Origin: Sphingomicrobium sp. XHP0239
Lineage (GTDB): Bacteria; Pseudomonadota; Alphaproteobacteria; Sphingomonadales; Sphingomonadaceae
NCBI RefSeq assembly: GCF_039555325.1
Contig: NZ_CP154608.1
Location: 1,302,001-1,366,000 of the forward strand
Direction of reading: 5' to 3'
DNA length: 64,000 nt
Below are positions 5,890 to 18,535 of the stretch, in pieces. The first letter of the stretch is position 1. Every line of letters begins with the position of its first letter. Position numbers and translations under genes: made by a program. Under the pieces are notes generated by a model, which saw only the letters and a list, made by a program, of their open reading frames with translations, searched no databases and was not told the DNA's origin.

Positions 5890-5923
5890 GAAAAGAAAAG
5901 GCCCGGCGGTTTATCGCCGAGCC
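5890..5923 (-). terminator. Intrinsic terminator of the KGGVGR ATPase operon
   Basis: Read on the minus strand, GGCTCGGCG (5923-5915) and CGCCGGGCC (5908-5900) form a nine-pair stem with one G-T wobble and a six-base loop. The T-rich run CTTTTCTTTTC follows. It lies about 160 bases beyond the stop codon of the ATPase gene. Confidence 0.75.
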
Positions 5924-6084
5924 TCACTCGTCCTAATATATATTGATGTTAGGAGTCGGCCCCTGAGTCATCTACCATTTCACTGCTCCTACTTTCACCA
6001 CTAATAGCTCTTATAAGTTAACCGATGATGGATATCGCTCGTTCCATGCCGAGTTAGCGGCCAGTCACACCTTGTGCAAGTGAC

Positions 6085-7941
6085 CTAGTTACGATTGTCA
6101 GTACCGAGGAATGGCGGTTTGAGGGGCTCACCACGTTTCATTGCTATCTCCATCTCCGCCAAATCCCGCCGGAAATCTTCAGCCGTGCAATATAGGTACG
6201 TCCAGCAGCTGAAGACGAAGAAGCCGAATTCGGATCGAGCGTGCGCTTCGTCGAGTTGCACCAGGGAGTCGTCGACTTGCTTTGCCAATGCACACGCCAG
6301 CGCGGCGCATTGGTGCCGATTCGCCTCCGATTTAGATGTCGAGTGCAACACCCCACAGAGAAAGCTCACGTCTTTCTCGTGTACAGCCCTTTCGTTCCCC
6401 CATTTTGCCATCAGCAAATTGAAGCGCGATGCCAAATCTTCGGGCCTGTCTTGTAGTACCTTGCGGATCAGATCGATCGCCTCGCTGAAACGCCGTGCAC
6501 CGATGAGAGCGATCGAGGCTGAATTGATGATGTCCCGCCAGAATTCATCTGAGATGTCGGTATTGTTAAGCTTTTCAATGAAGCCGTCGGCTACGAAATC
6601 GAGATTCTCTCGTTTAGTCATCAGATAAGGAGAGAGCTCGATCATAGCTCGAGATTTGGTTTCGGGATTTCCAAAGATTTGCCGTGCGACCGCCTCAGGC
6701 TCTTTGGTGACGGAACTCAACAAGCGAGCAGCGGGCATGAAATCGAAGGATGAAGCGTCTTTTGAGGTGAGAACATCGATCAAATCGGTAAGCGCCTCGT
6801 CCTTTTTGTTGAGGTTGATCCGCGCCACGGCCCGCAGAAGTCTGTGTCGTACGCCATCCGAGCCATGCTTGATCGCCACCGACAATGAGTGCTCCTCGTC
6901 TTCATAAAGCTGGGCTTCGGAAAAGACTTCCGCGGCGAGCGATGCGATCTCTGAATCCTCAGGGTGCCTTCTTTGAATCTGTTTGGCCTTTTCTGGGATC
7001 GCAGTGCTTGCCTGACTGCTCTTCACTTTTCGCGCAGCCTCGAAAATCTCGGGCATTCGAGTGAGCGCAACGATCGCTCCGTCGCGGTCTTCGCGGTTTT
7101 CCGCCATGATCGCGTGAGCCAGTTTTCGATACTGGCGTGCGAGCTTCGATTTTTCGCGCGACAAGGCGATCACCGGAAGGTCGAGAAGCGCCATATTCGC
7201 CCAATGCCCGATGGTGACGACGGGTGGCTCCAGTTGCGTAGGATCGCCATATCGCAATTCTTCGCGAGCGGATTGGAGCGATCGGCCGAGAATGTCGTCC
7301 TCGTCAAAAGCTTCAGGCAAGTTGGAAGGGCAGAAAAGCAATTCGATATGCCTGCCTCCGCGCTTGGGTTCAGTGCGGATGAGCTCCACGATCGGCCCTA
7401 GGCCGACGATGTTCTGACGCGTGGGGATGAACATTAGGACCACAACGTCCGGGATCTGGCGCGTGCAAATGCCACTGACGTCTGTATTGCCAGTACGACT
7501 GTCGACCAAGACATAGTCGAACCCCTTGCCTTCAAATTGCGCCCATTGATTCTTGAGGTCTTCGATTAAGAGGTATCCCTCGCGCTCTTCGTAGAGATGT
7601 GCCCAATCGATGGATGAAAAAGCTTGGGAATAATGCGGCGACGTATTGTCTCCGGCCGGCATCACCCAGACCGGGATGTCGGGCGCAATCTCGCACTTGG
7701 TGATGTAGCCGGACACCGCCGGTGCTGCATTGGTCTCCAGATAATCGTGGACAAAGTCCACGATGCCGGGTTTGCCGCGCACTTCTTCGAAGGGCCCGTA
7801 GCTCGGGATGCCCGGTGCCTCCAGATCGAAGTCGACGATGAGGACGCGGCGCCCCATTTCGCTGAGGATCGCCGCGACATTTGCGAGGGCCATCGTGCGA
7901 CCCACGCCGCCTTTATAAGAATAGAAGGTGGTGACAAACAC
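6085..7941 (-). CDS. KGGVGR-variant P-loop ATPase with C-terminal helical repeats
   Basis: A 618-residue protein. Residues 1-270 form a MinD/ParA-like (SIMIBI-class) ATPase: deviant Walker A KGGVGRT at 10-16, VLIVDFDLEAPG at 34-45, and VLVDSRTG as the switch region. The final Lys-Thr of a standard ParA Walker A (KGGVGKT) is replaced by Arg-Thr, which defines the KGGVGR variant group. Residues about 290-610 are all-helical with TPR-like periodicity (AIDLIRKVLQDRPEDLASRF). No effector domain such as nuclease, TIR or membrane helix is visible. It is the last gene of a minus-strand operon and begins two bases after the HTH gene stop. Variant ATPases of this group often occur in conflict systems. 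A defence role is inference from that and from the adjacent CBASS. Confidence 0.8.
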   Translation of the reverse strand: MFVTTFYSYKGGVGRTMALANVAAILSEMGRRVLIVDFDLEAPGIPSYGPFEEVRGKPGIVDFVHDYLETNAAPAVSGYITKCEIAPDIPVWVMPAGDNTSPHYSQAFSSIDWAHLYEEREGYLLIEDLKNQWAQFEGKGFDYVLVDSRTGNTDVSGICTRQIPDVVVLMFIPTRQNIVGLGPIVELIRTEPKRGGRHIELLFCPSNLPEAFDEDDILGRSLQSAREELRYGDPTQLEPPVVTIGHWANMALLDLPVIALSREKSKLARQYRKLAHAIMAENREDRDGAIVALTRMPEIFEAARKVKSSQASTAIPEKAKQIQRRHPEDSEIASLAAEVFSEAQLYEDEEHSLSVAIKHGSDGVRHRLLRAVARINLNKKDEALTDLIDVLTSKDASSFDFMPAARLLSSVTKEPEAVARQIFGNPETKSRAMIELSPYLMTKRENLDFVADGFIEKLNNTDISDEFWRDIINSASIALIGARRFSEAIDLIRKVLQDRPEDLASRFNLLMAKWGNERAVHEKDVSFLCGVLHSTSKSEANRHQCAALACALAKQVDDSLVQLDEAHARSEFGFFVFSCWTYLYCTAEDFRRDLAEMEIAMKRGEPLKPPFLGTDNRN

Positions 7942-7943
7942 GA

Positions 7944-8594
7944 TTAGTGCATCGCTGCAATTGGAGGATGGAGAAAGTCGACTCCCCTCGGTTTCATGCT
8001 CTGTACGTCAGTACGAAATGTAGGTCTTCCACCGCGGCGTCTTGGCATCGAAGGTGTCGCAGTACGATATTCACTCCGCGCTGGTACCAGTGCACATTGC
8101 TCCTGCGGCAACGCTCTTGACAGTGCTGGAGCCAACTCGGCGTTCATCGCCTCAATCGCCTTGGCCTCATCGACTGCGTCCCGCTCAAGCTTGTCATTAT
8201 CTGCGAGCCATGACGCTACGTCGCTCCAGTTCCACAAGGGGCGCTGACTTGTCAGGCTGACCACCGGGCTCGGGAAATCTTTCCCCCGGCTCCCATTTGC
8301 GTAAAGCGAAATGACTTGCCGGGTGAGACCTGCACGATCGGCGATGTCGCTCGCTGAGACGAGCGGATCCGGTTCTACCCGCAGGACATGTGCGCCCGCT
8401 TTCTCGACGCTTTCTTTCGCGCTGCGAAGCGCCTTTGCAAAGCTGGAGGATTCACGGTCGAAGCGAATGACGAATCGTCCGCGCTGGATGGCCACCAACG
8501 CATCGTCACAGCCGGCATCGAGAAAGCGATCCTGCCATTCTTCATCGTCTAGCGACAGGCCGTCAGCGACGATTGTGAATTCATAGGTTTTCAT
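7944..8594 (-). CDS. HTH DNA-binding protein with HicB/ferredoxin-like N terminus
   Basis: 216 residues from ATG 8594, chosen because AGGAGG sits six bases upstream. ATG 8597 would leave only three. Residues 1-75 (MKTYEFTIVADGLSLDDEEW, then FLDAGCDDALVAIQRGRFVI) look like a compact alpha/beta domain that recurs beside HicA-like proteins. Residues 80-128 are a helix-turn-helix (VSASDIADRAGLTRQVISLY) ending in the LWNWSDVASWL motif common in such regulators. The C terminus is disordered and basic (MPRRRGGRPT). The start overlaps the end of the HicA-like gene by 14 bases. Likely role: antitoxin and autorepressor binding the palindromes at 8904-8950. This is inferred, not shown. Confidence 0.7.
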   Translation of the reverse strand: MKTYEFTIVADGLSLDDEEWQDRFLDAGCDDALVAIQRGRFVIRFDRESSSFAKALRSAKESVEKAGAHVLRVEPDPLVSASDIADRAGLTRQVISLYANGSRGKDFPSPVVSLTSQRPLWNWSDVASWLADNDKLERDAVDEAKAIEAMNAELAPALSRALPQEQCALVPARSEYRTATPSMPRRRGGRPTFRTDVQSMKPRGVDFLHPPIAAMH

Positions 8595-8883
8595 CATCAG
8601 CCTCCTTTTCGTTTTCACTCTTCGTCTTTTCCGGCGCCCCTTCGCCCGCCGTCGGGCGGTGCGGGCAGGCATCGATGGCCCTTAAGATCTGCTTGGCGTG
8701 GTTGGCGGCGCTCTTGGGCGTGCTCCAGATCGACATCCGACAGCCGTCGCGAGACGCCTGGGGGCACTTGACGGCTCCCCAAGGCTTGGCGCGCGGGCCT
8801 GCTTTCTCGATCTTCCAACCCATGTCCTCCGCCCGGCGAAGCGCATCCTCGATCTCGGATTTTGAATGCTTCGGCCGAGTCAT
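8581..8883 (-). CDS. HicA-like small protein, candidate toxin
   Basis: 100 residues, first gene of the minus-strand operon. The layout helix (KSEIEDALRRAEDMGWKIEK), beta strands, then SIWSTPKSAANHAKQILRAI and helix follows the HicA double-stranded-RNA-binding-like fold. MGWKIEK corresponds to the Gly-Phe/Trp strand, and STPK...QILRAI to the C-terminal helix of HicA. The Gly-Ser-His active-site motif of classic HicA is absent: GPRAKPW stands in its place, and two extra Cys (KCP and GCRM) could bind a metal. The tail (75-100) is acidic. It may therefore be a divergent or non-catalytic relative. It pairs with the overlapping HTH gene as toxin-antitoxin genes do. Confidence 0.6.
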   Translation of the reverse strand: MTRPKHSKSEIEDALRRAEDMGWKIEKAGPRAKPWGAVKCPQASRDGCRMSIWSTPKSAANHAKQILRAIDACPHRPTAGEGAPEKTKSENEKEADDENL

Positions 8884-8903: not shown

Positions 8904-8950
8904 GTTGACGAGCGTCAACAATATGTAGTGAAGTGTTGACAAATGTCAAC
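8904..8950. promoter_or_regulatory. Twin palindromic operators between HicA-like operon and CBASS
   Basis: Two copies of GTTGAC-N4-GTCAAC occur at 8904-8919 and 8935-8950, with centres 31 bp apart (about three helical turns), so a protein could bind both on one face. TTGACA (8949-8944, minus) with CATATT (8925-8920) 18 bp downstream is a plausible promoter for the minus operon, overlapping both palindromes. The plus strand also carries TTGACA at 8936-8941, aimed at the CBASS genes, but its -10 (TAAATG) is weak. Autoregulation by the HTH protein is inference. Confidence 0.75.
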
Positions 8951-9032
8951 GCCGGGGGTAAATGAGGCGCAAGGCCGGTGTGGTATCGGTCGTTCCCACC
9001 CGGCATTCGCCGACGACAGATAGGCTTTGAAC

Positions 9033-10397
9033 ATGGCGACCCTTCCCGATATTTCCCAATCGCCCTTCGGCAATCTCGTGCAGATCGACCCCGTTGAGGC
9101 TGCGCTAATGGACTTGGCCCGCGCGCTCCAGTTGACGCCGTCCATGCATCGCGAGGCGACCCGCCGCTATGACGCGCTCGCCGTGCATGTCGATCGCAAT
9201 GGAAGCCCGCTCGAAGACAGGGTCAGCGAAGTTTATCCCTCAGGAAGCTTTGCCATCCATGCCGCGATCCGCTCGGACATCACGCGCGACCAGCATGACG
9301 TCGATGCCGTTCTCGAACTGTGTGTCAGGTCGGAGGCGGACCCCGAGCGTGTGCTCGACGAGCTCTATTCGGCGATCGTTTCGACGGACGACGAAACCTA
9401 TCGCGGACTGAAGGTGGAACGGAACAGCCGCTGCGTGACGGTGCATTATACGGATGGGGTGACGGTCGATTTGATGCCCGTCGTGCGATTGGCTGGCCAG
9501 GAACCCCGGGTTGCGAAGCTGTTCCACTCCAAGCCCGAAACGGGCGAGTGCTATCACAAGGAGGTGAACCCCTGTGGGTTCGCCAAGCATTTCAACAAGA
9601 CCGTTGAACTAAGCGCGACGTTCCAGATGCGTTTCGACCATCGCCGGACGCTGGTCGAGGGCGCAAGCTTCGCTGACCAGCAGGCCGGCTATAGCGTGAT
9701 GGAGAAGGCCGACACACAGCCCATGCCTGATCATGTGCCGCTGGACCAGAAGGCGCCGAGGGTGGTTGCCCTGCAGATCCTCAAGCGCTTTCGCGACAAG
9801 CGGTATCGCAATTGCGATGACCATAAGGGCTGCCGAAAGCCGCCGTCGATTGTCATGGCCGCTCTTGCGCTGGAGGCACCTCCCTCCTCGTCCAACCTGA
9901 CCGATGAGGTCATTGCTGTCGCCACGGCAATTCGAAATTCGATCGTGGCGGCCGATCGGGTTGGGCAACTCATCGAAGTGCGCAATCCGTCGCATCATCC
10001 CGACCTCTTTACCGATCGCTGGCCGGAGGATCAGTCGGCACAGCGCTTGTGGGCTGCCGACCTCCAGCATTTCATCGGGAGCATTACCGAGTTGCGCCGA
10101 AATGGATTCGATCCGGTACGCACCAAAAGGGTGTTTGATGATCTCTTCGGTGAGAAGGTCGGCACGCGGGTCCTTGAGGATCATTTCCGCGTCCAGAACA
10201 AGGCGATCGATGAGGGCCGAGCCGGCATGACAAGGGACGGCCGGCCCGTCTCGCCTGCCATGCCTGCTGGAGCGGCCTCTGCCGGCAAGGCAGGGGTGGC
10301 TGTGGCGGCGGGCCTCGGAGCGATGGCGAACGATCACGCGCCTTCGATTATCAAGCCGCTTCGCTCGAACACCGGGATGGGTGATCGGCCCCGATGA
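9033..10397 (+). CDS. CBASS CD-NTase (cGAS/DncV-like nucleotidyltransferase)
   Basis: 454 residues. It carries the nucleotidyltransferase fold with Gly-Ser at 71-72 (YPSGSFAIHAAI), the catalytic Asp pair at 89/91 (RDQHDVDAVLEL) and a third Asp near 146 (VTVDLMPV). A helical C-terminal lobe completes it. ATG 9033 is preferred over TTG 9027. Such enzymes make cyclic di- or trinucleotides on phage infection. The product cannot be read from sequence. The C-terminal 55 residues are Gly/Ala-rich and likely flexible, ending in GMGDRPR rather than a terminal Gly/Ala, which matters because an E2-like gene follows. The gene overlaps the E2-like gene (ATGA at 10394-10397). Confidence 0.9.
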   Translation: MATLPDISQSPFGNLVQIDPVEAALMDLARALQLTPSMHREATRRYDALAVHVDRNGSPLEDRVSEVYPSGSFAIHAAIRSDITRDQHDVDAVLELCVRSEADPERVLDELYSAIVSTDDETYRGLKVERNSRCVTVHYTDGVTVDLMPVVRLAGQEPRVAKLFHSKPETGECYHKEVNPCGFAKHFNKTVELSATFQMRFDHRRTLVEGASFADQQAGYSVMEKADTQPMPDHVPLDQKAPRVVALQILKRFRDKRYRNCDDHKGCRKPPSIVMAALALEAPPSSSNLTDEVIAVATAIRNSIVAADRVGQLIEVRNPSHHPDLFTDRWPEDQSAQRLWAADLQHFIGSITELRRNGFDPVRTKRVFDDLFGEKVGTRVLEDHFRVQNKAIDEGRAGMTRDGRPVSPAMPAGAASAGKAGVAVAAGLGAMANDHAPSIIKPLRSNTGMGDRPR

Positions 10398-10864
10398 TGA
10401 TTTCGATAGAGCGCCAGATCGCGGATATGGCCGCGCATCTTCCAGACTGGACCGTCGAACTCCTAGATGCGCGTTCGGCCGTTTGGATAGGATCGCTCCA
10501 ACCTTACACGACGCGCTATACGATCCGTATCGAGCAGCGCATACCCTACTTGGTCGAAAACCGAACTCTGATCGATGTACAGCCCTTGATTGAAGTGCTT
10601 TCTCCGAAGTTGATGCTTCAACCCGGCAACCCGGAAGGGGATTTGCCACACGTATATTGGAGCTTGCCGCAGACCGAGCGCGCAGGTCCCTTCTTGTGCG
10701 TGTTCGATGCTGAGGCGCGCGAGTGGACGCTTGATGATCCTTTGTCACACAGCATCGTTCCTTTTACGCTTCATTGGCTCCAGTCCTACGAGGGCTGGTT
10801 GGCGTGCGGCGACTGGTTAGGATTCGGCCGTCATACAGGAGGAAAAAGAACCGGTGTCTGCTAG
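10394..10864 (+). CDS. Stand-alone E2-like CBASS accessory protein
   Basis: 156 residues. The pattern LPHVYWSLPQTE, GPFLCVFDAEAREW, IVPFTLHWLQSYEGWLACGD W-LGFGRH matches the short E2-like (ubiquitin-conjugating-fold) proteins of type II-short CBASS. Cys102 in FLCVF is the likely conjugating cysteine. There is no E1 (adenylation) domain and no JAB peptidase gene nearby, as expected for the short form. Known homologues attach the CD-NTase C terminus to targets and raise its activity. That this one does so is inference. The start overlaps the CD-NTase stop and the end overlaps CapV by 11 bases, so the three genes are translationally coupled. Confidence 0.75.
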   Translation: MMISIERQIADMAAHLPDWTVELLDARSAVWIGSLQPYTTRYTIRIEQRIPYLVENRTLIDVQPLIEVLSPKLMLQPGNPEGDLPHVYWSLPQTERAGPFLCVFDAEAREWTLDDPLSHSIVPFTLHWLQSYEGWLACGDWLGFGRHTGGKRTGVC

Positions 10865-11972
10865 TTCGACAAGCGCCGAGCGCGCTTTAGCGCCGCTTCC
10901 AACCCACCTCCGCTCTGATGGGCTCCGACAAGATCGGCGCCAGCAGCTCCCTTGGCAGCAGGAGGAATTCAGGATCCTATCGATTGACGGCGGCGGTATT
11001 CGTGGCATTCTCCCGGCGAGCATTCTGACCGAGTGCGAACGTGCTTTTACCGGTGGTACGTCGGCGGGCCGATATTTCGATATGATCGCTGGCACGTCGA
11101 CAGGCGGCATTATCGCGTTGGGCCTGGGACATGGCTTACCCGCATCTCAGGTTCTCGATCTTTATCTCAAGCACGGCGGCGAGATTTTCCCGTCGAAGCC
11201 CAAGCGCACGGGGTGGCGGGAGAAGATGGCCGGATGGATCGCGCTGGCCCGTAATGTACGGAAGGTACGTTATCGACCCGATGTCCTTAATGAGCTGCTG
11301 GTGGAGACGTTCGGCACGAGCGTTCTTGGAGAATCAACGCGCCGATTGGTTATTCCGACCTTTGACGGGAATACCAAGGTGAATGTTCTTAAAACGCCGC
11401 ATCACCCCGATTTCCAACAGGACTGGAAGCAAAGCATGGTCGATGTAGCACTGGCCACGTCTGCCGCGCCGACCTACTTCCCGCCGCACAAGGTGGATGA
11501 GAAGGTTTACGCCGATGGGGGCGTCTGGGCGAATAACCCGGTCATGCTGGCCCTCGTCGATGCTCTCACCTGTTATGATTTAGATCGTCACTCGGTCCGC
11601 ATCCTCTCGCTTGGTTGCAGCTCGGGAAAGTTGAGTATTAACGAGAAGCAGATCAACCGAGGCGGACTATGGGATTGGCGTGAGGTCGTGACCGCGGCTA
11701 TGGATCTGAGCGGACAGAATGCCGATGGACAGGCTGGCCTGCTGATTGGGCGTGAGCGCCTATTGCGTATCGACCAATGTGATCAGAAAAAATCGATTGC
11801 ACTTGACGATTATGCCGAGGCTAAGTCCGCGCTCCCGTCGCTGGCGAAAGAATTGTTCAATCGCCATCACGCGAAATTGCAGGAGTTCTTTTCTGTCGCC
11901 CGCCCCGAAACCAACGCCTACTATGGGCCCCGGTCCCTTCTTGAGACCAGTGAGCCCAGTCGGTTGGCGTGA
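10854..11972 (+). CDS. capV: CapV patatin-like phospholipase, CBASS effector
   Basis: 372 residues from GTG 10854, with AGGAGG about 11 bases upstream. Patatin hallmarks are present: oxyanion loop GGGIRG at 46-51, nucleophile elbow GTSTG at 80-84 (Ser82) and catalytic Asp221 in ADGGVWANNP. The length matches CapV. In known CBASS, CapV is switched on by the CD-NTase product and degrades membrane phospholipids, killing the infected cell. The gene overlaps the E2-like gene and ends the CBASS operon. The 126-base gap to the convergent rtcR gene shows no clear terminator. Confidence 0.92.
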   Translation: MSASSTSAERALAPLPTHLRSDGLRQDRRQQLPWQQEEFRILSIDGGGIRGILPASILTECERAFTGGTSAGRYFDMIAGTSTGGIIALGLGHGLPASQVLDLYLKHGGEIFPSKPKRTGWREKMAGWIALARNVRKVRYRPDVLNELLVETFGTSVLGESTRRLVIPTFDGNTKVNVLKTPHHPDFQQDWKQSMVDVALATSAAPTYFPPHKVDEKVYADGGVWANNPVMLALVDALTCYDLDRHSVRILSLGCSSGKLSINEKQINRGGLWDWREVVTAAMDLSGQNADGQAGLLIGRERLLRIDQCDQKKSIALDDYAEAKSALPSLAKELFNRHHAKLQEFFSVARPETNAYYGPRSLLETSEPSRLA

Positions 11973-12098: not shown

Positions 12099-13688
12099 TT
12101 AGCTGATACCGTCCCACGTAAGTCCAAACCGCGCCAGAAACTTGCGCAGACGATCGGCGTCGTTCGTCGATTTGCGCTCACCCCGCGAGACCGCAAACAG
12201 TTCTCGCCCCGCAGCCGACAACGACGCACTGCGACGGCAGACCGCGATTACATGTTCCAACTGCGCCTGGTCGAAGGGGTCGATCCGGGCGATGGTATCG
12301 GCTGGCAGGACTTCGGCAAGCGCACTGTCACCAGCTCGGTCGCCCTCGCCGTGCCAAAGTCGCCCGAGCCGCGCGATTTCTGAGGTAACCGTAGCCGCGT
12401 CGATCCGTCCGTCCTGGCTGAGCGTCGCCATGCGGGTGATGCTGGCCGACAGGTCGCGAAAGTTGCCGTTCCAAGTTGCCTCATTGCTCGTTGCGAAGGC
12501 GAGGTAGGCCCTGCGCGCCTCGGCGTTGAAGGTGACGCGCAGGTCTTCCGCCTTGGCGAAGCGTTCCAGTTCATAGTCGAGGTTGGGCTCGATGTCCTCG
12601 CGGCGCTCGGCAAGGCCGGGGAGAGCGAAGGTCCATAGGTTGAGCCGGGCGAACAGGTCTTCGCGGAAACGACCTTCTCCGATCTCAGCGACGAGGTCGC
12701 GGTTGGTGCCGGCGATTAGCTGGAAATCGCTTGCCACTTCCTTGTCCGATCCCACGGGAAGGAAGCGCTTGTCCTCCACCGCGCGCAAGATCATCGCCTG
12801 CTCGTCGAGGCCGAGTTCCCCGATCTCGTCGAGAAACAGCATGCCCTTATCGGCGCTGCGGAGCAGGCCAGCGCGTTCGGCGACCGCGCCGGTGAAGGCG
12901 CCCCTAGTGTGGCCGAACAGGGCGGCCATCGCGTTGTCGCCTTTCAAAGTCGCGCAGTTGACCTCGACGAACGGACCGGAGAGGCGGTGGCGCTCGACCT
13001 TGAGTTCGTAGATTCGGCGGGCGAGCGCGCTCTTGCCCGCGCCGGTCGGTCCCATCAACAGAAGTGGCGCGGAAGAGCGCGTTGCGACCTGCTCGATTTC
13101 GTCGATCATGGTGTTGAAGGCCGCGTTGCGCGTCTCGATCCCGCCCTTGAGAAACGACGTGCTTACCCGGCTGCCTTCGGCAAAGCGCTGCGCGATAGTG
13201 TCGTAGCGAGATAGGTCGAGGTCGATCGCGTTCCAAACACCCGAGGGGTCGGGTGCGCCGCGCTTCGGCTGGGTCTGCAACAGCTTGCCAGGAATGAACC
13301 GGGCTTCGGTCAGCAAGAACATGCAGATTTGCGCAACGTGGGTGCCTGTAGTGATATGGACGAGGTAGTCCTCGCCCTCGGGATCAAATTCGAAGCTCTG
13401 CGCAAAGTCGAGTAGCTCGGTGTAGACCTCCTCAAAATCCCAAGCATCGTCAAAATTCATCACGCGCGGTTCGACACTCGTCTCCGGCGAGACGCCGGCG
13501 ATGTCGTCGGCGATGAAGCGTGCCAGCCCCTCGTGCTGGCGTCCGTGGAGCAGGATCAGCCGATCAACGCGCAGGTCCGGCTGCATGCACAACCCCACCG
13601 TTGGTCGCCACTTGCTCCACCGTGACGCGTCACGCTTGCTCGCGTCGAGTGTCGAGCCGAGGAATCCGATTACCGTCGTGCGCCGCAT
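12099..13688 (-). CDS. rtcR: RtcR, sigma-54 activator of the RNA repair operon
   Basis: 529 residues. The N terminus (1-180) is the CARF-type sensor domain of RtcR (VIGFLGSTLDASKRDASRWS, then WRPTVGLCMQPDLRVDRLIL). The AAA+ core has Walker A GPTGAGKS at 213-220, the sigma-54 contact loop GAFTGA at 263-268 and Walker B LFLDEIGE near 285-291. A C-terminal helix-turn-helix follows. RtcR is thought to sense damaged-RNA ends or oligonucleotides through CARF and then turn on rtcBA. It is divergent from rtcB and is paired with a sigma-54 promoter at 13827. Inverted repeats directly upstream of its start may mediate binding or autoregulation. Confidence 0.95.
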   Translation of the reverse strand: MRRTTVIGFLGSTLDASKRDASRWSKWRPTVGLCMQPDLRVDRLILLHGRQHEGLARFIADDIAGVSPETSVEPRVMNFDDAWDFEEVYTELLDFAQSFEFDPEGEDYLVHITTGTHVAQICMFLLTEARFIPGKLLQTQPKRGAPDPSGVWNAIDLDLSRYDTIAQRFAEGSRVSTSFLKGGIETRNAAFNTMIDEIEQVATRSSAPLLLMGPTGAGKSALARRIYELKVERHRLSGPFVEVNCATLKGDNAMAALFGHTRGAFTGAVAERAGLLRSADKGMLFLDEIGELGLDEQAMILRAVEDKRFLPVGSDKEVASDFQLIAGTNRDLVAEIGEGRFREDLFARLNLWTFALPGLAERREDIEPNLDYELERFAKAEDLRVTFNAEARRAYLAFATSNEATWNGNFRDLSASITRMATLSQDGRIDAATVTSEIARLGRLWHGEGDRAGDSALAEVLPADTIARIDPFDQAQLEHVIAVCRRSASLSAAGRELFAVSRGERKSTNDADRLRKFLARFGLTWDGIS

Positions 13689-13690
13689 TA

Positions 13691-13741
13691 TTATCCTTTA
13701 GGATAAATCACGATAAAAAACTATAAGAAATACAGTTATAG
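13691..13741. promoter_or_regulatory. Inverted repeats in the rtcR-rtcB control region
   Basis: TTATCCT-TT-AGGATAA (13691-13706) starts three bases upstream of the rtcR ATG and includes its AAAGGA ribosome site. CTATAA-N9-TTATAG (13721-13741) lies just beyond. Both are AT-rich in a GC-rich genome and lie 85-135 bases upstream of the sigma-54 promoter, where an enhancer-binding activator would bind. Assignment as RtcR sites is inference. Confidence 0.55.
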
Positions 13742-13826
13742 AGGCACGTACGATCTTAGTGCTGTCTCATCATGAACCCCTGCGATCCCGGATCCCTGCG
13801 GGCATTTCCGTCTTCCCGAATGAGTT

Positions 13827-13842
13827 TGGCACGCTGCCTGCA
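13827..13842 (+). promoter_or_regulatory. Sigma-54 promoter of rtcBA
   Basis: TGGCACGCTGCCTGCA matches the sigma-54 consensus TGGCACG-N4-TTGCA at every fixed position except T to C in the -12 element. The GG and GC dinucleotides are correctly spaced. It is oriented toward rtcB and matches the RtcR dependence known for this operon. Transcription should start near 13853. Confidence 0.85.
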
Positions 13843-13888
13843 AAGCTAGGAGCGCCGGGTTTATCGAACGCCCGGTGACGATGACGCC

Positions 13889-13916
13889 GGGGTGGCCGGA
13901 ATGGGCCGGCCACCCC
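13889..13916 (+). promoter_or_regulatory. Stable hairpin in the rtcB leader
   Basis: A perfect 11-bp stem, GGGGTGGCCGG / CCGGCCACCCC, with loop AATGGG lies between the sigma-54 promoter and the rtcB start (13943). It is preceded by a weaker GCCGGG...CCCGGT stem (13854-13876). There is no T-run, so it is not a simple terminator. It could be a leader control element or a small RNA related to the Y-like RNAs found beside some rtc operons. Confidence 0.6.
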
Positions 13917-13942
13917 TAAGGCTGCCGCAGCAAGGACAAATG

Positions 13943-15169
13943 ATGACTCAGACAGGCTACGAACTTCAGCAGGTAGACGGCGGAGCGCCGATCAAGATGT
14001 GGACGCGCGGCGTTCCCGTCGATGACAAGGCGCGCGACCAGCTCTCCCGAGCGGCGAAGATGCCGTTCATCTTCAAACATGTTGCTGCCATGCCCGACGT
14101 CCATGTCGGCATCGGGGCGACCGTCGGTTCGGTCATCCCGACCAAAGGCGCGGTGATCCCCGCGGCCGTCGGCGTGGATATTGGCTGCGGCATGATGGCT
14201 GCGCGCACTTCGCTTATGGCCAGTGACCTTCCCGACAACCTTGAAGACATCCGCTCGACTATCGAGAAAGCCGTGCCGCATGGCCGTTCCGCGGGCCGCG
14301 GCGGACGCGATAAGGGCGCCTGGGGCGATCCGCCGTCGGAGACGGTCGAGGCTTGGGCAACCCTCGTTCATCGGTTCGATCGGATTGTGGTGAAGTATCC
14401 CAAGCTGGAGCGCGCCAATCACCTCGTGCATCTCGGCACGCTGGGGACGGGCAACCACTTCATCGAACTGTGCCTCGACGAGGAGCAGCGCGTCTGGGTG
14501 ATGCTACATTCCGGCAGCCGCGGCGTCGGCAACGCGATCGGGCGTTATTTCATCGAACTGGCGAAGGGAGATATGCGCAAGTGGCATATCAACTTGCCGG
14601 ACGAGGACCTTGCCTACTTCCCGGAAGGCACCGACCATTTCGACGATTACGTCGAGGCGGTTGAATGGGCGCAGGACTTCGCCAAGCTCAACCGGCACGT
14701 GATGATGACGCACACGATCGCGGCGCTTCGCAGCCAGATCGCCAAGCCCTTCACGGCGGAATGCGAGGCGGTGAACTGCCATCACAACTACGTGACGCGC
14801 GAAAACCACTTCGGTGAGAACGTTCTTGTCACCCGCAAGGGCGCGGTGCGCGCGGCGAAGGGAACGATGGGTATCATCCCCGGATCGATGGGTGCGAAGA
14901 GCTTCATCGTGCGCGGCCTCGGCAACGCGGACAGCTTCGACAGCTGTTCGCACGGCGCTGGCCGGGTGATGAGCCGGACCCAGGCCAAGAAAGAGGTCTC
15001 GCTCGAAGAGCATATCGCCGACACGGCTGGGGTCGAATGCCGTAAGGATGCAGGGGTGATTGACGAGACGCCCCGGGCCTACAAGCCGATCGAAAAGGTC
15101 ATGGCCGCGCAGGCCGATCTGGTCGAAATCGTCCACACGTTGAAGCAGGTGGTGTGCGTGAAGGGATAA
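13943..15169 (+). CDS. rtcB: RtcB RNA-splicing ligase
   Basis: 408 residues, the same length as the E. coli enzyme. ATG 13943 (MTQTGYELQQVDG) follows AAGGA, and an in-frame earlier start at 13892 would run into the leader hairpin. Conserved motifs include PDVHVGIGATVGSVIPT, the metal-binding VDIGCGMMA, LGTLGTGNHFIE, the HSGSRGVGN loop and CHHNYVTRENH. RtcB joins 2',3'-cyclic phosphate or 3'-phosphate ends to 5'-OH ends using GTP and Mn2+, healing nuclease-cut tRNA and rRNA. It is the first gene of rtcBA. Proximity to CBASS suggests a repair arm against toxin or phage-triggered RNA cleavage, which is inference. Confidence 0.96.
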   Translation: MTQTGYELQQVDGGAPIKMWTRGVPVDDKARDQLSRAAKMPFIFKHVAAMPDVHVGIGATVGSVIPTKGAVIPAAVGVDIGCGMMAARTSLMASDLPDNLEDIRSTIEKAVPHGRSAGRGGRDKGAWGDPPSETVEAWATLVHRFDRIVVKYPKLERANHLVHLGTLGTGNHFIELCLDEEQRVWVMLHSGSRGVGNAIGRYFIELAKGDMRKWHINLPDEDLAYFPEGTDHFDDYVEAVEWAQDFAKLNRHVMMTHTIAALRSQIAKPFTAECEAVNCHHNYVTRENHFGENVLVTRKGAVRAAKGTMGIIPGSMGAKSFIVRGLGNADSFDSCSHGAGRVMSRTQAKKEVSLEEHIADTAGVECRKDAGVIDETPRAYKPIEKVMAAQADLVEIVHTLKQVVCVKG

Positions 15170-15207
15170 TCCCTTCACGCCGCCATCCGATTATCCAGGA
15201 TTACGCC

Positions 15208-16227
15208 ATGATCACTATCGACGGCTCCGAAGGCGAAGGCGGCGGGCAGATGCTGCGCAACGCCTGCGCGCTGTCGCTCGTCACAGGCGAGCCTTTCATC
15301 ATCGAAAAAATCCGCGCGGGCCGCGATCAGCCCGGGCTTATGCGCCAGCACCTGACCGCGATCGAGGCCGCCTGCGCCATTGGCGGGGCCGATTGCGAGG
15401 GATTGCAGCTCGGCTCCAACCGCATCACCTTCAAGCCAGGTTCGGTGACGCCGGGCGATTATCGCTTTGCCGTCGGAACGGCGGGCTCGACCGCGCTCGT
15501 CCTCCAGACGATACTCGTGCCGCTCGCGCTGGCCGACAAGCCGTCGCACCTAATTATTGAGGGCGGCACCCATGCCAACATGGCCCCCCCGTTCGACTTC
15601 ATCGCGAAGTGCTTCCTTCCCATCTTTGAGCGTATGGGGCCGCGCGTCTCAGCCCGCATCAAGCGACACGGTTTCTTCCCGCGCGGGGGCGGCCGGATCG
15701 AAATCGACATCGAGCCTTCACCGTTGCGTCGGATCGAATGCATTGAGCGGGGCGAACTCCGCGAGCGGTCGGGCATGATTGTCTCCGCCTCGCTCGGCGA
15801 CGGCAAGATCCCGCAGCGCATTCGAAAGGCGACACTTAAAGCGCTGACCGAGTGGGACGAAACCATGGTGTCCATTCGGGATTTGCCTGCCGACCAAGGC
15901 CCGGGCGTGGCGATGACGTTGGAAGCCGCCTACGAGCATGTGACCGAGGTCGTTTCGGGTTTCGGCAAGCTGGGCGTGTCGGCAGAACGGATTGGAACCA
16001 CCGCGGGCAGGCGTATGGCCGGTTACCAGGCGTCGAGTGCCTTTGCGGGACCGTACCTGCAGGACCAACTCCTCCTGCCAATGTCGATAGCGGGTGGCGG
16101 CACCTTCACTAGCGTGAAGGTCAGCGAGCACACTCGCACTGCGGCAGACGTTATCACCAAATTTACGGGACGCAGCGCGCAATTCGAAGATGCGGACACA
16201 AGGGGAACTTTGGTCCGGTTATCCTAG
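15208..16227 (+). CDS. rtcA: RtcA RNA 3'-terminal phosphate cyclase
   Basis: 339 residues from ATG 15208 (MITIDGSEGEGGGQMLRNAC), 38 bases after rtcB. Signature stretches include the IDGSEGEGGGQ N terminus, RAGRDQPGLMRQHLTAI, GTAGSTALVLQT, HGFFPRGGGRIE and the C-terminal SEHTRTAADV containing the histidine that is adenylylated. RtcA converts RNA 3'-phosphate ends to 2',3'-cyclic phosphates with ATP and can adenylate 5'-phosphates. Together with RtcB it forms the RNA repair pair controlled by RtcR. Confidence 0.96.
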   Translation: MITIDGSEGEGGGQMLRNACALSLVTGEPFIIEKIRAGRDQPGLMRQHLTAIEAACAIGGADCEGLQLGSNRITFKPGSVTPGDYRFAVGTAGSTALVLQTILVPLALADKPSHLIIEGGTHANMAPPFDFIAKCFLPIFERMGPRVSARIKRHGFFPRGGGRIEIDIEPSPLRRIECIERGELRERSGMIVSASLGDGKIPQRIRKATLKALTEWDETMVSIRDLPADQGPGVAMTLEAAYEHVTEVVSGFGKLGVSAERIGTTAGRRMAGYQASSAFAGPYLQDQLLLPMSIAGGGTFTSVKVSEHTRTAADVITKFTGRSAQFEDADTRGTLVRLS

Positions 16228-16912: not shown

Positions 16913-17965
16913 ATGGAAATCGAAGCCAGCATCGCAGAACTGCAAGCAACTTTGCGGAAGCACCGCGAAAAGCTCGCTACCAAAGAAGCCGCTAAGACTA
17001 CGCTTGTTCTGCCGTTCCTCAGAGCGCTCGGTTACAACATCTTCGACCCAGACGAAGTTGTGCCGGAATTCACTTGCGACGTTGGCACCAAGAAGGGTGA
17101 GAAGGTCGACTACGGGATTTGTGTTGGCGGCGAGATCAAGATCCTAGTCGAATGCAAACCTGCCAACGGCGACCTTTCAATTAAACATGCGAGCCAGCTC
17201 TATCGGTATTTCGCTGCCACCGATGCGCGACTTGCCCTGCTGACGAATGGCGTCATCTATCGGTTCTTCACGGATGCCGAGAAAACCAACATGATGGACG
17301 ATCGGCCGTTCTTCACATTCGATCTCGATAACTACAAAGCCTCTGATCTTCGAACACTTGCAACTTTCCAGCGCGCTGACTTCGATCTTGCTCGGATTGT
17401 CTCACATGCCGGAGCGCTAAAACTTCAGTCTGAAGTTTTGGCAGAGCTACGCAAGGAGTTCGATGAGCCTTCGGACGATCTTGTCAAAATCATCGCCGGC
17501 CGGCTGCATGATGGGATCATCACTAAAGGTGTCAGGGACCGATTTCGGTCTGCTATTACCCAAGCCTACGGTTCGTTGATTAGGGACGGAGTCCACCAGA
17601 GACTTGAGAAGGCGATTAGCGGGGGCAGTGACGAACCAGACCATCAAATGGCTGAGGTCGATCAAGGCGCGGTCGAGACTACAGACGTAGAGATTGAGGG
17701 TTTCAACATCATCCGGGCCATTTGTGCAGAGAAGGTCGATCCCTCTCGCATGGTGATGCGAGACGCTAAGTCCTACTGCGCGATCCTCCCGGACGATAAC
17801 AACCGGCGTACGATTGCACGGATGCATTTCAATAGTCCTACCTCGCGCTATCTGGGGCTATTCAGCGGAAAGGATGAAGCCCGGGAAGGCGTTATGGGGC
17901 CGGTAGATATCTTCAAGCACAAGCGGGCAATTTTGAAGCGTGTAGCTGAGCTTGAGGAAGAGTGA
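16913..17965 (+). CDS. Orphan HsdR N-terminal-type restriction nuclease
   Basis: 350 residues. Residues 1-190 match the HsdR N-terminal nuclease domain: a helical start, FLRALGYNIFDPDEVVPEF, and the PD-(D/E)xK core with Asp67 (VDYGIC), Glu80 and Lys82 (ILVECKP). A QLYRYFAATDARLALLTNG segment follows. The C-terminal part (260-350; AICAEKVDPSRMVMRDAKSY) is a second small domain seen in solo members. There is no helicase domain and no HsdM or HsdS gene nearby, so it is not a type I restriction complex. The solo family occurs in prophages and islands with unknown function. A defence role is plausible. A GGGGG-rich ribosome site precedes the ATG. Confidence 0.8.
   Translation: MEIEASIAELQATLRKHREKLATKEAAKTTLVLPFLRALGYNIFDPDEVVPEFTCDVGTKKGEKVDYGICVGGEIKILVECKPANGDLSIKHASQLYRYFAATDARLALLTNGVIYRFFTDAEKTNMMDDRPFFTFDLDNYKASDLRTLATFQRADFDLARIVSHAGALKLQSEVLAELRKEFDEPSDDLVKIIAGRLHDGIITKGVRDRFRSAITQAYGSLIRDGVHQRLEKAISGGSDEPDHQMAEVDQGAVETTDVEIEGFNIIRAICAEKVDPSRMVMRDAKSYCAILPDDNNRRTIARMHFNSPTSRYLGLFSGKDEAREGVMGPVDIFKHKRAILKRVAELEEE

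Positions 17966-18458: not shown

Positions 18459-18535
<77 letters not shown>

Follow-up and report, generated by a model that had tools for sequence, protein, structure and literature searches.

We analysed a three-gene locus (genes A, B and C) in a 64,000-nucleotide stretch of the Sphingomicrobium sp. XHP0239 genome (contig NZ_CP154608.1, positions 1,302,001 to 1,366,000; this whole stretch is called the window below). Gene A encodes a HicA-like toxin candidate, gene B a helix-turn-helix (HTH) antitoxin-like protein and gene C a KGGVGR-motif ATPase. We found that A-B-C is a real operon, that the toxin-antitoxin (TA) family ahead of C is exchangeable, being either HicA/HTH or MqsR/MqsA, and that, by sequence comparison, antitoxins from these unrelated families resemble each other in their C-terminal tail where C is present, a tail that the compared relatives without C lack. 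We consider it probable that the locus is a tripartite TA module, in which C would hold B by its tail and so set the release of A.

An ATPase behind exchangeable toxin-antitoxin pairs

Gene C scored 161.9 bits against the NCBIfam model NF047398 (KGGVGR-motif variant AAA ATPase), well above the cut-off of 90, and was additionally matched by the PADLOC model PDC-M28B over the ATPase domain only. Its helical repeats gave weak, sub-cut-off matches to Pfam TPR models, and a profile of C retrieved TPR proteins from the PDB (expect (E) values of 1e-4 to 6e-4), in agreement with the initial annotation of a 618-residue ATPase with a repeat domain. Pfam identified no added effector domain in C. Seven relatives could be aligned with C from end to end, at 31-56% identity to the window protein, indicating that the helical C-terminus is common to the relatives, and four viral relatives gave near full-length BLAST matches.

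Full-length C is rare and patchily distributed, with 12 distinct loci identified, the window included. For this count, two Rhizobium phaseoli records at the same place were taken as one locus, and two Massilia records (L006 and L014) as one plasmid. Among 72,556 plasmid records 24 were matched, five of them over at least 80% of the query, and plasmids with full-length C came from Polymorphobacter, Rhizobium gallicum, R. phaseoli and Massilia. The genome searches, whose draws overlap one another, recovered C in 3 of 396 genomes of the order (its own, G198 and G312), in 3 of 385 of the class at E 1e-30 (its own, G657 and G429, the last domain-only), and in 9 of 398 of the phylum, of which seven were domain-only and Massilia was found again. 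Further draws gave 1 of 300 and 1 of 369 (both Massilia), and 1 of 25 around G657, which was G657 itself; in the viral_contigs set, full-length C was present in four of six loci. Eleven other KGGVGR loci (L013, L015-L022, L067 and L068) matched the ATPase domain only, and were set outside the 12 as other proteins.

At all 12 full-length loci, an antitoxin-like HTH gene lies directly before C, at a spacing of -1 to +12 nt. This gene is B with A ahead of it at three loci (the window, G198 and Polymorphobacter), and an MqsA-type gene at the other nine, eight of which have an MqsR-like open reading frame (ORF) ahead of it. The front pair of these nine corresponds to MqsRA in toxin fold and antitoxin family, the toxin model matching MqsR. 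At L063 (3075-3453), a toxin region with an interrupted reading frame precedes an intact antitoxin and ATPase; the MqsR-like toxin ORFs of L004 (5099-5458), L005 (5112-5471) and L006 (4045-4407) are not annotated in the gene tables of the plasmid records, which are incomplete. The initial annotation had proposed that a front pair of TA type and a sensor-like ATPase make up a single module, an idea to be doubted if the three genes were rarely together elsewhere. The exact trio is indeed rare, being confined to three loci, with A/B mostly occurring without C and C mostly behind MqsR/MqsA; what stood was the association itself, as every full-length C that we found had an antitoxin-like gene immediately ahead of it.

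We built a tree of C with three outgroups that match over the domain only. In it, the HicA-type loci grouped together (100/100), and this group was nested with three MqsRA-type loci in a larger one of six (95/99); two other MqsRA-type rows were long branches. Thus, provided that the distant outgroup places the root correctly, a single replacement of MqsR/MqsA by HicA/HTH is the simplest history. The modules occur in mobile settings, on plasmids, with integrases (L003, L006 and L069) and with phage genes (L065). Genes for a D12-type DNA methylase, a portal and a gpP-like terminase adjoin the MqsRA-ATPase triple of L065 (4578-8203), which therefore probably belongs to a P2-type prophage. Two further triples (L070 6153-10781 and L071 9041-14230) lie near a lepA-like gene, identified by eye, perhaps at an insertion hotspot and perhaps by chance. 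We rejected a housekeeping ParA/MinD role for C, as no partition protein is listed beside it in the gene tables of L003-L006, although such a role was not searched for as such; the Massilia replication initiator lies three genes on from C.

A/B pairs, by comparison, are widespread and mostly ATPase-free. Matches to gene B were found in 282 plasmid records, mostly enterobacterial. We found no C in 48 ATPase-free loci by tblastn with three C proteins (E<=0.01), 40 of these being IMG/VR viral loci found with B; one locus (L030) holds no DNA behind B and six others hold less than 1.9 kb there. Two weak blastp matches to C were obtained among the 40 viral loci (L046, E 4e-4; L059, E 0.004). Many of the ATPase-free pairs are close to that of an Escherichia coli plasmid locus (L008), whose gene neighbours are similar to those of phage SSU5.

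The C-terminal tail of C-linked antitoxins

Past the HTH part, the three C-linked B proteins end in PTFRT...FLHPP (window), PKFRT...FDLNP (G198) and PKLRV...FDLRRP (Polymorphobacter). The tails of the C-linked MqsA-type antitoxins are mostly alike (for example PTFRT...FSLRP), with F-x-L in 9/9 and the FRT-like part in 7/9 (not in Massilia and L066), yielding a consensus of PxFRT...F-x-L for C-linked antitoxins. We built a profile from the MqsA-type tails of all nine loci, leaving B out. The scores of the three B tails against it sum to 21.4, a value not attained by any of 20,000 shuffles of the columns of the B tail alignment, shuffles without a HMMER report being scored as -10. When single tails were shuffled 20,000 times each, the score was reached by 212 shuffles for the window, 4 for G198 and 94 for Polymorphobacter. 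In a control of 910 tails of real ORFs, from which copies of the three tested proteins (from L069-L071) had been excluded, 2, 0 and 1 scored as high as the tails of the window, L010 and L003, respectively. As the likeness was first spotted by eye, all these statistics are optimistic.

B proteins from ATPase-free loci, 30 distinct ones in a first set, all scored below zero against the tail profile. Of five more, four scored from -0.8 to 1.9, under the 3.0, 3.6 and 6.9 of the C-linked proteins, and one (L079) returned no score. The C-linked MqsA-type antitoxins are 167-199 residues long, compared to 131 in E. coli MqsA, which ends before the tail, as does a free-standing MqsA relative of Rhizobium leguminosarum (L076, 48% identical). 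An origin of the likeness in a ribosome-site effect was rejected, the FRT part lying about 20-30 codons before the ATPase start.

Operon features, predicted operators and neighbouring genes

The ORFs confirmed three genes arranged as first annotated, with an overlap of 14 bases between A and B and a start of C two bases past the stop of B (ORF coordinates, with gaps recomputed; Table 1). The start of B was taken as 8594, the listed ORF beginning farther upstream, at 8672. A terminator belonging to the operon, also proposed in the initial annotation, was less clear: one candidate with an 11-bp stem follows C, but terminator-like sites in the region numbered three against a shuffle mean of 3.4, i.e. 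no excess. Promoter-like sites numbered two, against 1.4 in shuffles.

Table 1. Features of the A-B-C locus and the adjoining operon (window coordinates).
Feature	Position	Strand	Description
Gene A	8581..8883	-	100 aa, ATG start; PADLOC PDC-M06A, E 1.8e-23; HicA-fold toxin-like
Gene B	7944..8594	-	216 aa from ATG at 8594; PADLOC PDC-M06B, E 5.4e-29; HTH antitoxin/autorepressor-like
C-terminal tail of B	7962..8024	-	Residues 191-211, PTFRT...FLHPP; resembles tail of ATPase-linked MqsA-type antitoxins
Gene C	6085..7941	-	618 aa, GTG start; KGGVGR-variant ParA/MinD-type ATPase, TPR-like helical C-terminus
Promoter-like site of ABC operon	8920..8949	-	TTGACA, 18 nt, CATATT
Terminator-like stem-loop, 3' of gene C	5898..5925	-	11-bp stem; one candidate
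Operator-like perfect palindrome	8904..8919	.	GTTGACGAGCGTCAAC; GTTGACN4GTCAAC type
Operator-like perfect palindrome	8935..8950	.	GTTGACAAATGTCAAC; 31 bp from first; overlaps predicted -35 box
Divergent CBASS operon	9027..11972	+	Shares intergenic region with module; not counted as module part
CBASS CD-NTase	9027..10397	+	
CBASS E2-like	10394..10864	+	
CBASS patatin effector	10854..11972	+	

Neither A nor B gave a Pfam match (for B, none above the cut-off), and the two adjacent genes match both models of the PADLOC candidate PDC-M06. The predicted structure of A follows an alpha-beta-beta-beta-alpha order and aligns with chains of four HicAB-type complexes; despite the modest scores, this bears out the earlier HicA-like designation. 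On this model, A would be an RNase-type toxin of the HicA fold.

Within one mismatch, GTTGACN4GTCAAC occurs in the window only at the two sites of Table 1, against 0.10 expected. It was also identified before A in G198, in two copies again 31 bp apart, and in Polymorphobacter. Among ATPase-free loci, 35 of 43 contain it with at most one mismatch (L002, L007, L008 and 32 of 40 viral loci, many of them near-copies), and it was absent within two mismatches from five further ATPase-free plasmid loci (L077-L081). In phage SSU5 and the E. coli plasmid (L007 and L008), the HicA-like/HTH pair with this palindrome lies near a DNA polymerase III alpha gene. The MqsRA-type loci carry a different palindrome, GTATCAN2TGATAC, before the toxin gene in six of nine cases (at most one mismatch). 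A palindromic operator proper to each TA family looks like the arrangement of autoregulated type II TA pairs; position and conservation of the two window sites point to B as their putative repressor.

We confirmed the divergent cyclic oligonucleotide-based anti-phage signalling system (CBASS) of the initial annotation through matches to its cyclase, E2-like and patatin genes. In G198, too, the module and a CBASS operon diverge from a shared intergenic stretch, here of only 90 bp, that contains both palindromes. The cyclases of the two operons gave no significant BLAST match (E 0.08), nor did the G198 E1-E2 protein and the window E2; the gene order differs, and the patatins are the only clear relatives (34%). 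As the two CBASS differ as a set, either this neighbourhood originated twice or the CBASS was swapped while the module stayed in place. B may be a CBASS regulator. The CBASS operon at L069 (11839-18052), which differs from that of the window and comprises patatin, cyclase and E1-E2 genes, is divergent to the same kind of module and is followed by a tyrosine integrase.

Directly beyond the window CBASS (12099-16227) lie RtcR (CARF-AAA-HTH), RtcB and an RtcA-like ORF, the last recognised by eye, so that an RNA repair set adjoins CBASS and an RNase-type toxin candidate. An HSDR_N-type protein (16913-17965) is followed by a tRNA-Arg (18459-18535), which could mark an island end.

Proposed mechanism, alternatives and relation to known systems

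The mechanism that we favour is built by analogy with toxin-antitoxin-chaperone (TAC) modules, with the tail as the link. The RNase activity of A would be silenced by B, which would also repress the operon through the two palindromes. C would grip B through the C-terminal tail, and its nucleotide or signal state would set whether B silences A, either by protecting B or by stripping it away. Phage infection or another insult might then perturb C, so that B is let go and A acts, leading to growth arrest. A role in defence is likely from the genomic setting. A further reading, which we hold to be unlikely, makes the KGGVGR-TPR ATPase a portable unit of control that would recognise one short C-terminal antitoxin tail, kept as unrelated TA pairs are swapped. 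At two loci the tailed antitoxin would also occupy the promoter region of a CBASS operon, so that one ATPase would arm an RNase toxin and cyclic-nucleotide immunity together.

Two observations weigh against the tripartite module in the window itself. The match of its tail is the weakest of the three B proteins. In HicA, the catalytic histidine sits in the loop before the second strand; window A lacks it, with an arginine at the matching place as judged by eye, and the 29 other distinct relatives of the 30 compared all keep the histidine (a count that excludes L080, whose A frame holds stops).

This missing histidine would fit a module acting chiefly as a CBASS regulator, in which B would keep the divergent CBASS promoter repressed until C, on receiving a signal, released B, and A would be silent or vestigial here. 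Such regulators are known upstream of diverse immune operons (PMC13373217), and the window and G198 modules both face CBASS operons, of differing kinds, across the two palindromes. However, a simple scan of the two intergenic stretches identified no sigma-70-like promoter facing CBASS, and no CBASS is listed in the gene tables of one of the three HicA-type loci (Polymorphobacter) or of the plasmid loci L004-L006, the three MqsRA-type ones with annotation; no CBASS search was made among the ORFs of L063-L066, L070 and L071. The annotated ATPase-free loci with the palindrome (L007 and L008) also list no CBASS, the unannotated ones not having been scanned, and we hold this explanation to be improbable. 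It is somewhat less improbable, if still unlikely, that C is itself a sensor-effector of the conflict ATPase type, with the TA pair only an addiction or regulatory cassette that does not talk to C. KGGVGR domains with other C-termini do occur in the 11 further loci, without relatives of A, B, MqsR- or MqsA-type genes among complete ORFs within a few kb, and the modules lie on mobile elements (plasmids, integrases, phage genes), where TA pairs are common. Yet an independent cassette gives no reason for two unrelated antitoxin families to have like tails only with C, when the free-standing Rhizobium relative (L076) ends before the tail, and C has no effector domain detectable by Pfam. We discarded a chance stack of three defence-island genes, which the rarity of the exact trio (3 loci) might suggest but which is very improbable given that the (toxin-)antitoxin-ATPase order and tight spacing recur in 12/12 loci, in different families and elements.

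The tripartite TA reading is closest to the TAC modules, in which, according to PMC5105189, a C-terminal extension makes the antitoxin of HigBA, MqsRA or HicAB pairs depend on a SecB-like chaperone. Shared with these are a third gene accompanying a TA pair, the HicAB and MqsRA families, control that is transferable between pairs, and an antitoxin extension absent from two-component relatives, for those compared here. The arrangement of tail and ATPase would thus closely parallel chaperone addiction, with an unrelated third protein, a P-loop ATPase with TPR-like repeats in place of a SecB-like chaperone. In contrast to the ChAD regions of TAC antitoxins, described in that source as without significant mutual similarity, the tails of the two antitoxin families are alike here.

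Other described systems account for parts of the locus. HicAB of Gerdes class 3 (hicA, then hicB with a C-terminal HTH) resembles it in the order of the genes, in the size and predicted fold of A and in having an HTH antitoxin; the absent loop histidine sets window A apart, and none of the 14 classes listed in PMC10865869 is named as having a KGGVGR-type ATPase as third gene. MqsRA supplies the front pair in 9/12 C loci, differing in that the C-linked antitoxin is longer, tailed and followed by the ATPase gene. The models of PDC-M06 cover A and B only, whereas C falls to another candidate, PDC-M28B, by its ATPase domain. CapH+CapP, CapW and CapK+CapS (PMC13373217) similarly place a DNA-binding regulator beside an immune operon; however, the present module has no visible protease, WYL protein or kinase, its regulator would be a TA antitoxin, and CBASS adjoins only two of the three HicA-type loci. 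The initial annotation's view that no described system consists of these three genes holds in part: we found no account of the trio in the open-licence PMC literature, most subscription papers lying beyond that search, but A and B are already the PADLOC candidate pair PDC-M06A/B.

How TA pairs sense phage is mostly an open question, and a new kind of third protein, found with two toxin families and a candidate docking tail open to deletion or grafting, makes it directly testable. The partnering of one ATPase with two different TA pairs suggests a control unit plugged into different self-poisoning defence switches, and the tail is a computable handle for finding more pairs under the same control. 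The module may additionally link TA control with CBASS expression. If the tripartite mechanism is true, these ATPases would be a second, independent solution to the job performed by SecB-like chaperones in TAC modules.
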